A stretch of DNA of 32,480 nucleotides, taken from the NCBI GenBank assembly GCA_020428795.1, contig JAGQME010000007.1, positions 1-32,480 on the forward strand, read 5' to 3'. Numbering within the stretch: the first letter of the stretch is position 1; every line of letters starts with the position of its first letter. A model generated the notes under the pieces. That model was not told the origin of the DNA and ran no database searches. It saw only the letters and a program-made list of their open reading frames with translations. This DNA comes from Candidatus Kaiserbacteria bacterium. Lineage in GTDB: Bacteria; Patescibacteriota; Minisyncoccia; Phycocordibacterales; UBA918. Positions 15,718-17,328 of the stretch are shown here, one piece after another. A program made the translations under genes and the position numbers.

Positions 15718-16137
15718 TTATATATCCATCAAAAATAATCCGATTTCTTCATTATAGATTCTAGAAATATTTGTCTCTAAAATTTCAATACTTAGTTCCA
15801 AAACTACCCCCACTCTCATCTCCTCCACGTGTCCACCAAATGTGTGATTTTCAGTATCAGAAAAAATTGCGTGTAAGTGTACAAATGGTTTACCCTCTTT
15901 GAGACAGACATTACCAGTCATATTTAAAACCTCATACATTCCATCGTATTGCTTGAAATGATATTTTTTATCACTGAGTGAGTAGTAACCACAACTAACC
16001 CACTCTACGGCACCCAACCCAGAAATGCTAGCGTTCTTTATATTATTTGTTAGACAAAATTCTAACAATGAAGACAAAACCTCTTCCCCTTTTTCAATCT
16101 TGATTACAAATTTATTACCAGCCTTGATGGATTTCAT
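15718..16137 (-). CDS. PPC (DUF296) domain protein
   Basis: A 139-residue single-domain PPC/DUF296 protein. The pattern ISGLGAVEWVSCGYYSL, then HLHAIFSD and the end block FGGHVEEMRVGVVLELSI is characteristic; His residues in HLHA and GGH may bind metal in the trimer. In plants the domain accompanies AT-hooks, but bacterial single-domain forms have no settled role. The gene stands alone on the minus strand. An extended -10 box TGA-TAAAAT lies exactly 6 nt from its ATG, so the mRNA is predicted to be leaderless. Confidence 0.85.
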   Translation of the reverse strand: MKSIKAGNKFVIKIEKGEEVLSSLLEFCLTNNIKNASISGLGAVEWVSCGYYSLSDKKYHFKQYDGMYEVLNMTGNVCLKEGKPFVHLHAIFSDTENHTFGGHVEEMRVGVVLELSIEILETNISRIYNEEIGLFLMDI

Positions 16138-16143
16138 AATGTG

Positions 16144-16152
16144 ATTTTATCA
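16144..16152 (-). promoter_or_regulatory. Extended -10 box of the PPC gene
   Basis: TGA-TAAAAT on the minus strand with a 6-nt gap (CACATT) to the ATG at 16137. Confidence 0.6.
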
Positions 16153-16204
16153 CAAAATTATGACTAGCTTTTTCCTGTTTATTTGGTACTATATGCCCCA
16201 CATT

Positions 16205-16281
16205 GGTCCCATCGTCTAATGGTTAGGATAATAAACAGTCTGGGAGACTGTTTATCCGAAGGGAGGGTTTTCATCAATGAA
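16205..16281 (+). pseudogene. tRNA-Glu 5' fragment followed by snap-back hairpins
   Basis: The first 24 nt (16205-16228) equal positions 1-24 of the tRNA-Glu genes downstream (acceptor strand and D arm). After that the sequence departs: an 11-bp hairpin ATAAACAGTCT-GGG-AGACTGTTTAT, then GGTTTTCAT-CA-ATGAAAACC, in which the anticodon-arm-like AGGTTTTCAT is followed by its own complement. No T arm or acceptor 3' strand exists, so it cannot be a working tRNA. It may be a decayed copy or a tRNA-derived small RNA. Confidence 0.6.
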
Positions 16282-16330
16282 AACCGGCCATTATAAAATG
16301 TCCGATGTAAAGTAGTAGAAAATAAATTCT

Positions 16331-16382
16331 GGTCCCATCGTCTAATGGTTAGGACAGCAGGTTTTCATCCTGCAAATCGGGG
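16331..16382 (+). pseudogene. Split tRNA-Glu, 5' half (positions 1-52)
   Basis: Identical over 52 nt to the intact tRNA-Glu at 16589, running through acceptor, D arm, anticodon arm (TTC) and the 5' strand of the T stem, and ending exactly at the T-loop. Joined to 16805-16827 it would give a complete tRNA-Glu including an encoded CCA. Whether it is dead, or is spliced, is unknown. Confidence 0.8.
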
Positions 16383-16546
16383 CTGGTTGATGTACGGAGC
16401 AAAGCGAAGTAAGAAGCCAATGGCTTGGCTTCTGTACATCAGCCAGAGCCGGAGTCATGTTGCGTCAGCAACGGACGAGGCGGGGTCGCAAGCACTTGCT
16501 ATAATTGGAACGTTAGTGAACAATTTTAGTTAGTGACTTGTGACCG
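16383..16546 (+). mobile_element. Structured element at the T-loop of tRNA-Glu (element B)
   Basis: 164 nt starting right after the tRNA T-stem strand. It opens with a hairpin (CTGGTTGATGTAC, 16383-16395, with 16434-16446; inner 9-bp AGAAGCCAA/TTGGCTTCT), then GTTGC-GTCA-GCAAC (16459-16472), then the 68-nt segment shared with the ftsZ element, ending GTGACCG. The next bases GATTCC match the tRNA T-arm, then the sequence breaks into the palindrome GATTCCTAGGAATC (16546-16559). The order of parts equals element A. No protein is encoded. Confidence 0.6.
16479..16546 (+). ncRNA. Conserved 68-nt segment, copy B
   Basis: Partner of 14150-14217. The hairpin is AATTG-GAACGTTAGTGAA-CAATT (16503-16525). 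The right end reads TTAGTGACTTGTGACCG. Upstream the shared CGCAAGCA (16487-16494) is fully conserved. Confidence 0.65.
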
Positions 16547-16588
16547 ATTCCTAGGAATCGAACCGTCATTGTTTTGGTAGAGAAAGTT

Positions 16589-16660
16589 GGTCCCATCGTC
16601 TAATGGTTAGGACAGCAGGTTTTCATCCTGCAAATCGGGGTTCGATTCCCCGTGGGATCA
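16589..16660 (+). tRNA. tRNA-Glu (TTC), intact
   Basis: 72 nt fold as a normal cloverleaf: acceptor GGTCCCA with TGGGATC, discriminator A, anticodon arm GCAGG-TTTTCAT-CCTGC with anticodon TTC, and T arm CGGGG-TTCGATT-CCCCG. The genomic 3' end is followed by CAG, so CCA is not encoded, unlike the 3' half at 16805. It is followed at once by a terminator hairpin. Confidence 0.95.
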
Positions 16661-16804
16661 CAGTTTAAAGAAAAACACTCAGCAACTAGCTGGGTGTTTT
16701 TCTTTAGACTGCTTTGAGTGCCTAGTAGGCAGAATCGAAAAGCGGTTTGAGATATTTTGGAGCTTGCGAACAAAATATCCAAACGCTGCACAGAATTCGT
16801 AGAA
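16661..16804 (+). mobile_element. Partial relative of the structured elements (element C)
   Basis: 144 nt between the intact tRNA-Glu and the 3' half of the split tRNA-Glu. It includes the terminator and a stem of about 16 bp (16741-16758 with 16772-16787). The tip GATATTTTG-GAGCTTGCGAA-CAAAATATC keeps the GA(G/A)C...GAA loop seen in elements A and B. The GTGACCG end is missing. The arrangement intact gene, element, 3' remnant of the gene parallels ftsZ. Confidence 0.4.
16662..16710 (+). terminator. Terminator after the intact tRNA-Glu
   Basis: Arms 16662-16678 and 16694-16710 pair continuously (AGTTTAAAGAAAAACAC with GTGTTTTTCTTTAGACT, one G-T), with an inner CAGC/GCTG. The 3' arm carries T5. 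Confidence 0.8.
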
Positions 16805-16827
16805 TTCGATTCCCCGTGGGATCACCA
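16805..16827 (+). pseudogene. Split tRNA-Glu, 3' half with CCA
   Basis: TTCGATTCCCCGTGGGATCA plus CCA: T-loop, T-stem 3' strand, acceptor 3' strand and an encoded CCA. It continues exactly where the 5' half at 16382 stops. Confidence 0.85.
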
Positions 16828-16870
16828 ATTAGAGAGCTAGTTCGAGCACTCGAGAAGGCTTGAATCAAGC

Positions 16871-16905
16871 AAACAAAAACAGTCTCATTGAGACTGTTTT
16901 TGTTT
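16871..16905. terminator. Bidirectional terminator before the hydrolase operon end
   Basis: AAACAAAAACAGTCTCA and its complement pair around 16888 with A and T tracts on both sides. It separates the tRNA region (plus) from the minus-strand operon that ends at 16912. Confidence 0.85.
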
Positions 16906-16911
16906 ACTCAA

Positions 16912-17328
16912 CTAAATAGTCTCTAAGAAACTCTCTATATCTGGATATCGTTCATTAAACATCAGGTAGAGTGTTTCTGGTTTTTCTACTTCGCCGATTA
17001 GAATAATTTTCTTTCCTAGACCAAAAGACACCCCAGCCTCCATATGGGCGGCCATACCGGCTGGTAGTAACATAATAATCGTATCGGCGTTTTTAAGTCC
17101 ATCCATGTCATCATTAAAATGTCTATGGTAATTAGGATTGCTCCAGAAATCTTTATATGACTCTAAAATATCCATCTGCTCGTTCCAAGGTAAGTTTTTA
17201 GATTCAGGAGTACAAGGCTTACTTAGAAAGTTGTAGCAAGAATACCCCTTACTTTCGATGCCCTTAATCAACCTAAGTATGTTTTCAGAATTGCGGGTCC
17301 TACCGATTACCATGTAGTCAGTTTTCAT
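16912..17328 (-). CDS. Nucleoside 2-deoxyribosyltransferase-like protein
   Basis: A 138-residue protein with the fold signature of the nucleoside 2-deoxyribosyltransferase/DUF4406 group: an N-terminal strand MVIGRTR, D82 in NADTIIMLLPAGMAAHMEAG and the would-be catalytic E97 in AHMEAGVSFGLGKKIILIGE. Enzymes of this fold exchange bases on deoxyribosides or hydrolyse nucleotides. It overlaps the upstream Nudix gene by 4 nt (ATGA) and is last in the operon. The exact substrate is not readable from sequence. Confidence 0.75.
   Translation of the reverse strand: MKTDYMVIGRTRNSENILRLIKGIESKGYSCYNFLSKPCTPESKNLPWNEQMDILESYKDFWSNPNYHRHFNDDMDGLKNADTIIMLLPAGMAAHMEAGVSFGLGKKIILIGEVEKPETLYLMFNERYPDIESFLETI

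Follow-up and report, generated by a model that had tools for sequence, protein, structure and literature searches.

An apparently undescribed, order-specific family of putatively mobile hairpin elements centred on tRNA genes in Kaiserbacteria and their relatives

Among described systems, Rickettsia palindromic elements (RPEs), which are selfish palindromes, are known from spacers (PMC1950309) and also, in frame, from the inside of proteins (PMC6649704). Short foldable elements likewise crowd the tRNA-Glu locus analyzed here, which lies in a 32,480-nt stretch of DNA (the window) from an 855-kb genome in 44 contigs (G000), belonging to a Kaiserbacteria-type genus of Patescibacteria. Integrases that target tRNA genes, for their part, usually leave a duplication of the tRNA tail at the T-loop and 3' end, and a sequence-only reading of the window had drawn attention to a 5' fragment of tRNA-Glu that is present here beside a 3' fragment. 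No earlier description of the elements was found in the literature searched, which largely left out subscription papers, and they apparently make up a family that has not been described before, is specific to one order and consists of putatively mobile hairpin elements with tRNA genes as their main sites.

The split tRNA-Glu gene and its counterparts in relatives

Our recomputation bore out the architecture proposed in the sequence-only reading. The two split halves, 16331-16382 and 16805-16827, together give a perfect 75-nt tRNA-Glu(ttc) fold with an encoded CCA, the gap between them measures exactly 422 nt, and the break falls on the T-stem/T-loop border, where the 5' half stops. The second tRNA-Glu nested in the gap is complete but does not encode CCA (Rfam, 64.1 bits), and it is the only complete tRNA that the Rfam scan returned in the window. 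The 52 nt of the 5' half are identical to nt 1-52 of the intact gene, while the 3' half consists of the 21-nt 3' tail of that gene followed by CA, so that CCA is encoded; the joined tRNA-Glu(UUC) halves are identical to the nested gene. Elements B and C, which had been proposed from the letters, proved to be genuine structured repeats that fold far better than shuffled sequences and recur across the genus. In addition, a third, shorter 5' copy and the hairpin element following it, both absent from the earlier reading, were found upstream. The genome-wide extent of the pattern had likewise escaped that reading. The locus is thus made up of the following parts (L numbers denote loci in this and other genomes).

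16205-16229, + strand: partial copy of the tRNA-Glu 5' end covering nt 1-25, as far as the D-arm (direct repeat family D2; equivalents in L010, L011 and L013)
16230-16330, + strand: upstream hairpin element of class E behind the D-arm copy, an 11-bp hairpin and a second hairpin (fold z = -3.2)
16331-16382, + strand: tRNA-Glu 5' half, nt 1-52, up to the T-stem/T-loop border (identity to the intact gene)
16383-16446, + strand: hairpin module hp1 of element B, at the T-loop (fold z = -6.6)
16447-16545, + strand: core of element B with two hairpins, GCCGGAG..GAGGCGGGGTCG..TTGTGACC (many genus genomes; alignment A4)
16546-16564, + strand: T-loop piece GATTCC, then its own inverted copy GGAATCGAACC (from the sequence; L010 and L012 arranged alike)
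16589-16661, + strand: intact tRNA-Glu(UUC), CCA not encoded (Rfam; sole UUC copy found in the assembly)
16661-16711, + strand: terminator-like hairpin right behind the intact gene and carried along with the proximal tail (inverted repeat I1)
16712-16731, + strand: small hairpin in the hp1 position, ahead of the core of element C (fold; homologous position at other tRNAs)
16732-16812, + strand: element C (covariance model R1, 81.4 bits, E = 2e-18)
16805-16827, + strand: tRNA-Glu 3' tail with CCA, the distal, older copy (matches uninterrupted tails in L014 and L015)
16868-16908, + strand: older tRNA-Glu terminator behind the distal tail (inverted repeat I3; homologous flank in L014 and L015)

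The nested stretch as a whole folds with z = -11.5 relative to shuffled sequences, and z-scores of -6.3 and -3.0 were obtained for the core of element B and for element C, respectively. Element C reads, in order, as an inverted T-loop copy GAATCGAA, the P2/P3 hairpin, GCACAG, the P4 hairpin and a direct T-loop copy. The position of hp1 is taken in L010 and L012 by a hairpin of different sequence with the same CTG...CAG ends, a class E-like sequence precedes tRNA-Glu in L013, and D-loop elements precede the tRNA-Ser(GCT) gene in L053. The segment 16661-16711 was also found behind tRNA-Glu(CUC), which sits on contig C13 of the same assembly. When the inserts were scanned with Rfam for known RNAs, only the tRNA and chance matches came up, and the phage records compared with the locus gave ordinary tRNA-Glu matches only.

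Comparison with related genomes, proposed in the sequence-only reading as a check, revealed an uninterrupted tRNA-Glu gene in two of them (L014 and L015), whose flank matches that of the window's distal tail in 97 of 113 columns. Since these uninterrupted genes carry the same flank, the distal tail with its CCA represents the older of the two 3' ends, and the proximal tail, which lacks CCA, would have arrived with the C unit. Two further relatives, L010 and L012, share the layout of 5' half, hairpin, element B and intact tRNA-Glu, and each of their 5' halves matches the tRNA of its own genome, while their element B is only about 73% identical to that of the window; the 5' half in L010 is itself broken by a further insert in the D-loop. 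This pattern points to repeated homogenization or repeated duplication and away from misassembly. An assembly artefact in which repeats were collapsed or misjoined would be in line with the fact that contigs C13 and C7 of our genome end within the same tRNA-Glu repeat, but the recurrence of the layout with so divergent an element B, together with parallel layouts in unrelated assemblies, makes this explanation scarcely credible. Taken together, the parallels in L010, L012 and the tRNA-Gly locus L208 (described below) and the flank in L014 and L015 suggest that the 422-nt interruption was produced by an insertion of B, in which the 5' side was duplicated, and an insertion of C, in which the 3' side was duplicated.

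Recurrence at other tRNA genes and at other targets

When the locus was used as a query, each of the 38 genus genomes gave partial matches, and many of these cover the inserts but not the tRNA. In four genus genomes, a direct copy of a tRNA gene's own 3' tail (at least 12 of 14 bases) was found again within 320 nt downstream for 52 of 126 tRNA genes, compared to 3 of 1260 controls, for which the tails of other tRNAs were used. Likewise, the own 5' end was found again upstream of 14 of these 126 genes (3 of 1260 controls). A clear inverted arm, in contrast, was restricted to a minority, with 5 of 126 genes at a threshold of at least 12 of 14 bases and 17 of 126 at a threshold of at least 11 of 14. 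In our own genome the pattern occurs at the genes for tRNA-Trp, both tRNA-Gly, tRNA-Gln, both tested tRNA-Ser, tRNA-Pro, tRNA-Asp, tRNA-Thr, tRNA-Val and others. Behind the tRNA come, in this order, a terminator, in many cases the gene's own 3' tail in inverted form, a conserved core and finally the same tail in direct orientation. The layout on the 5' side of the locus is repeated at a tRNA-Gly(CCC) gene (L208), where nt 1-49 are followed by an element at the T-loop, the T-stem piece TTCGATTCTCCC, a short filler and the intact gene; similar layouts at other tRNA positions are seen at tRNA-Val (L186) and tRNA-Asn (L196). The wider pattern is therefore one of repeated settling of short foldable elements in tRNA loops, with a complete copy of the tRNA kept alongside.

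Several particular arrangements were encountered in the course of these comparisons. Behind the distal tRNA-Ser tails of our own genome (L053 and L052) a further repeat, TTAGAGCTAGCACGAGACAC, is present. The tRNA-Thr(UGU) gene is preceded by a 5' tRNA copy that was duplicated along with 23 nt of its 5' flank (L002:1500-1574), and the unit downstream of the same gene includes a run of N. A tRNA in the rRNA operon of G009 carries about 100 nt in its anticodon loop, including the 23S rRNA-matching fragment CCGTAACTATAACGGTCCT (L144:483-651). Contigs C13, C7, C20, C44 and C16 of our own genome end at or near tRNA genes.

The elements fall into at least four core types, namely B (16447-16545), C (16732-16812), D, which was found at tRNA-Val and tRNA-Gly(UCC), and E, which lies upstream, after the D-loop. 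An alignment of class C from 16 loci supports 19 of 20 base pairs by double compensatory changes, and with the model derived for this class (R1) 55 copies were detected in four genomes. Of these, 36 follow a same-strand tRNA at a distance of 31-216 nt, where 0.5 would be expected by chance, and 14 are far from any tRNA. Copies away from tRNAs have the form GTGAG, hairpin, CGCAAG, P2/P3 hairpin, TGTACAG, P4 hairpin, and lack tRNA-matched arms. In one genome a single core of about 65 nt is found behind both tRNA-Leu(UAG) and tRNA-Lys(CUU), with arms that fit each tRNA, and the core at tRNA-Glu in the window is 94% identical over 85 nt to the core at tRNA-Trp of the same genome and 97% identical over 60 nt to a core at tRNA-Asn of another species. 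Cores shared between loci whose arms differ suggest a mobile core combined with arms of local origin. Direct repeats of at least 12 nt flank 14 of 30 copies near tRNAs (1 control) and 8 of 43 other copies (no control). In several copies the P4 stem possibly matches the first bases of the target.

Copies of class C were also found within genes of other kinds. In ileS a copy adds, in frame, about 30 residues between residues 303 and 336, another lies in frame inside tag, and in two species a copy is present in frame and in antisense orientation inside an ORF read as mnmA, a tRNA thiolation gene (L160:1997-3196 and L178:85-1296). An intact 5S rRNA lies between 5S fragments that are interrupted by hairpins and two class C elements (L144:770-1480), and the order, 5' piece, element, intact 5S and 3' pieces with elements, is like that at tRNA-Glu. 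In L140 an element is located within the duplicated start of a gene that reads as a beta-glucosidase. Finally, L184 contains a tandemly duplicated stretch with an element in one copy and the other copy intact, flanked by a 43-nt direct repeat.

These findings bear directly on the possibility of a functional split or intron-bearing tRNA-Glu whose halves would be joined in the RNA across the 422 nt. When joined, the halves do give a perfect tRNA ending in CCA, and the predicted fold allows the two parts of the T-stem to pair, but an intact tRNA occupies the gap, the 5' half of L010 is interrupted a second time in the D-loop, many tRNAs have a 3' tail copy but no 5' half, and copies inside proteins keep the reading frame, which would be needless under splicing. 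The in-frame copies thus argue against splicing that restores the host RNA, and no intron family, such as would be expected for group I or group II self-splicing introns, was among the Rfam matches for 16100-17000 even at E <= 5. We therefore regard this explanation as highly improbable; the split tRNA-Glu halves are probably remnants that are not spliced. The related proposal of the sequence-only reading, an intron-bearing tRNA invaded by a tRNA-carrying segment, is not supported either, since the same elements occur in unrelated tRNAs, in 5S fragments and in frame in proteins, and it is further opposed by the additional D-loop insert of L010.

A different role as RNA would be assigned to the units if they were functional tRNA-like RNAs processed by RNase P and RNase Z, with an acceptor arm formed by the inverted and direct tails, one hairpin standing for the D and anticodon arms and the core taking the position of the T-loop. 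The arms match the local tRNA, a hairpin lies at the acceptor/T-stem junction, and the strong covariation in the core is consistent with a conserved fold. Moreover, G.T combinations outnumber A.C combinations at the paired positions of the core (45 versus 12), which hints at some function or pairing as RNA rather than at a purely inert DNA palindrome, although this excess cannot settle the matter, given the preference of the aligner for G.U. The G.T share of paired cells is about 2.8% in the elements compared to 4.9% in the tRNA stems of the same genomes, and in class B an invariant G.U column pair, which would likewise suggest RNA pairing, is found in the weak consensus of the gappy alignment A4. 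However, the small number of tRNA genes with a clear inverted arm and the armless copies far from tRNAs render such tRNA-like RNAs quite unlikely. An analogy of the inverted tails with tRNA primers (retroviral PBS) was considered and rejected, as the tails exclude CCA and no reverse transcriptase was found.

The distribution of the elements is narrow. Of the genomes sampled, 10 of the 17 from the window's order contain class C and none of the 363 others in the phylum sample does, so that in this sample it was found only in one Patescibacteria order, Kaiserbacteria and relatives. The core pattern matches more than 80 contigs, and the matches listed bear the names of Patescibacteria (Kaiser-, Nomura-, Taylor-, Lloyd-, Vogel-, Zambryski-, Yonathbacteria and similar) or belong to MAGs; no match to it was obtained among IMG/VR viral contigs.

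Probable insertion with duplication of the target

The comparison of genomes supports a movement of the elements, and because flanking repeats accompany tRNA and non-tRNA sites alike we infer that duplication and insertion are coupled. Overall it seems probable that RPE-like mobile palindromic elements enter loops, part of the target being duplicated in tandem so that one gene stays intact. The single-copy, essential tRNA-Glu gene would have been struck several times by short non-coding, multi-hairpin elements of about 80-160 nt, with entry sites in a tRNA loop (the T-loop for B and C, the D-loop for the upstream element), in other structured RNA genes and in protein genes. Insertion would be accompanied by a tandem partial duplication of the target, and therefore one uninterrupted gene would survive, the outcome being either 5' part, element and whole tRNA, or whole tRNA, element and 3' tail. 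At tRNA genes the outer arms would become inverted and direct copies of the 3' tail of that tRNA, and gene conversion or hairpin template switching would probably keep them in agreement with the gene beside them; for the origin of the arms, the simplest guess would be hairpin template switching together with gene conversion. The duplication-coupled insertion itself may be pictured as a replicative, homology-assisted event involving a folded single strand. Because this best reading has elements inserting into loops with partial duplication of the target, it supports the idea of nested insertions put forward in the sequence-only reading, which stands in essence, in the form of two short hairpin elements, B and C, in partial copies that flank the intact gene.

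The search for an enzyme that mobilizes the elements identified none; the single tyrosine recombinase of our genome, a PF00589 protein, is Xer-like and encoded beside an rpsO-like ORF. No integrase ORF is present in the ORF list of the window, and the insert is non-coding. No Y1 transposase was detected in our genome, in G002 or in the element-rich genomes G003 and G008, and no reverse transcriptase in our genome, G003 or G008. A Y1 protein is encoded in 23 of the 38 genus genomes, with our genome, G003 and G008 among those without it. Y1 transposases and reverse transcriptases seem unlikely as movers, since their presence is uncorrelated with that of the elements.

That the only tyrosine recombinase is Xer-like is compatible with a scheme in which folded hairpins similar to attC or to the attP of CTX phage are recombined by the host Xer with the tRNA T-loop, each unit being a tiny cassette of tail, terminator and hairpin. 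In agreement with this, the 21 nt shared by the proximal and distal tails, at the T-loop and 3' end, resemble an att identity block, the unit brings a new tail and terminator without CCA, and the inverted arms mirror the T-loop. However, the inner arm has GAA and then AAA in place of the conserved GTT/AAC core triplets of attC, T-loop sequence is missing from the copies within proteins and 5S fragments, and the 5' duplications in L208 and in the window's 5' half do not fit the insertion of a cassette, which makes this scheme unlikely.

The same 21-nt repeat fits the usual footprint of a tRNA integrase, as would be expected if remnants of prophages or integrative elements had been left by successive insertions in tRNA-Glu. 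Such classical integrase scars are nevertheless very unlikely, given that one core of about 80 nt is shared by many different tRNA genes and by sites outside them, that the IMG/VR viral contigs lack the core pattern, that the genome's sole tyrosine recombinase is of the Xer type and that a 5' half with a T-loop element recurs at tRNA-Gly (L208). An origin by classical integrase insertion, against which the sequence-only reading had set the locus, was thus abandoned for elements that are so short, non-coding and not confined to tRNA genes.

About 40% of the tRNA genes examined in the genus carry these structures, despite the very small genomes of Patescibacteria. This prompts the questions by what means a non-coding element some 100 nt long can move when no enzyme for it is apparent, and what makes its arms fit each individual tRNA. 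We know of no transposition pathway that yields inverted arms consisting of the reverse complement of a tRNA tail. A more far-reaching and doubtful, if still conceivable, suggestion is that the elements belong to a new class of mobile nucleic acid, which targets the loops of structured-RNA genes, has arms matched to its target and inserts harmlessly because it duplicates that target. Such a class may act at the level of RNA or of a folded single strand with the help of a host enzyme, and, if true, this would explain how so many tRNA genes could be colonized in a tiny genome. The repeats at tRNA genes probably break the assembly of our own genome, and tRNA annotation, the joining of contigs and claims of split or intron-bearing tRNAs based on fragments need to allow for such elements in these bacteria.

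Comparison with known systems

Four groups of known systems share features with the elements. REP/BIME sequences and the palindromes derived from IS200/IS605, which are mobilized by Y1 transposases, are similarly short, non-autonomous hairpins, in contrast to which the elements are present in genomes without a Y1 protein (our own, G002, G003 and G008). To our knowledge, the Y1/REP pathway produces neither arms matched to the target nor duplications of it. Phages, ICEs and IMEs that target tRNA genes by means of a tyrosine recombinase resemble the present case in the duplication from T-loop to 3' end and in the resulting combination of one intact tRNA with a 3' fragment. They differ from the elements described here, which comprise only about 80-160 nt, are non-coding, occur several per tRNA, are accompanied by 5' fragments and have targets other than tRNAs.

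Integron attC sites and the folded attP of CTX-type phages are likewise imperfect palindromes with extra hairpins, which could be recombined as folded single strands, and the tail duplication seen here resembles attL and attR. However, no cassette genes are associated with the elements, copies of which lie in ORFs, and no integron integrase was found in our genome, where the single PF00589 protein is Xer-like. Membership in attC was considered because the first cut point falls at G|TT, and was rejected because the core triplets are not kept; neither AAC nor GTT is present in the inner arm TCGAAAAG or the outer arm GAATTCGATTC.

The RPE, whose hosts belong to a different phylum, is the closest functional analogue. 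Similar to RPEs, the elements are short palindromes located in spacers and in frame in protein genes, here ileS, tag and, in two species, mnmA, and one palindrome is repeated at many unrelated loci, as illustrated by the 55 class C matches in four genomes, with covariation at 19 of 20 pairs. In contrast to RPEs, they cluster strongly at the 3' ends of tRNAs, possess tRNA-matched arms and the modules hp1, P2/P3 and P4, and are found together with an intact copy of the target. Since RPEs and the elements were compared by description and not by sequence, the relation between them is one of likeness and not of membership.
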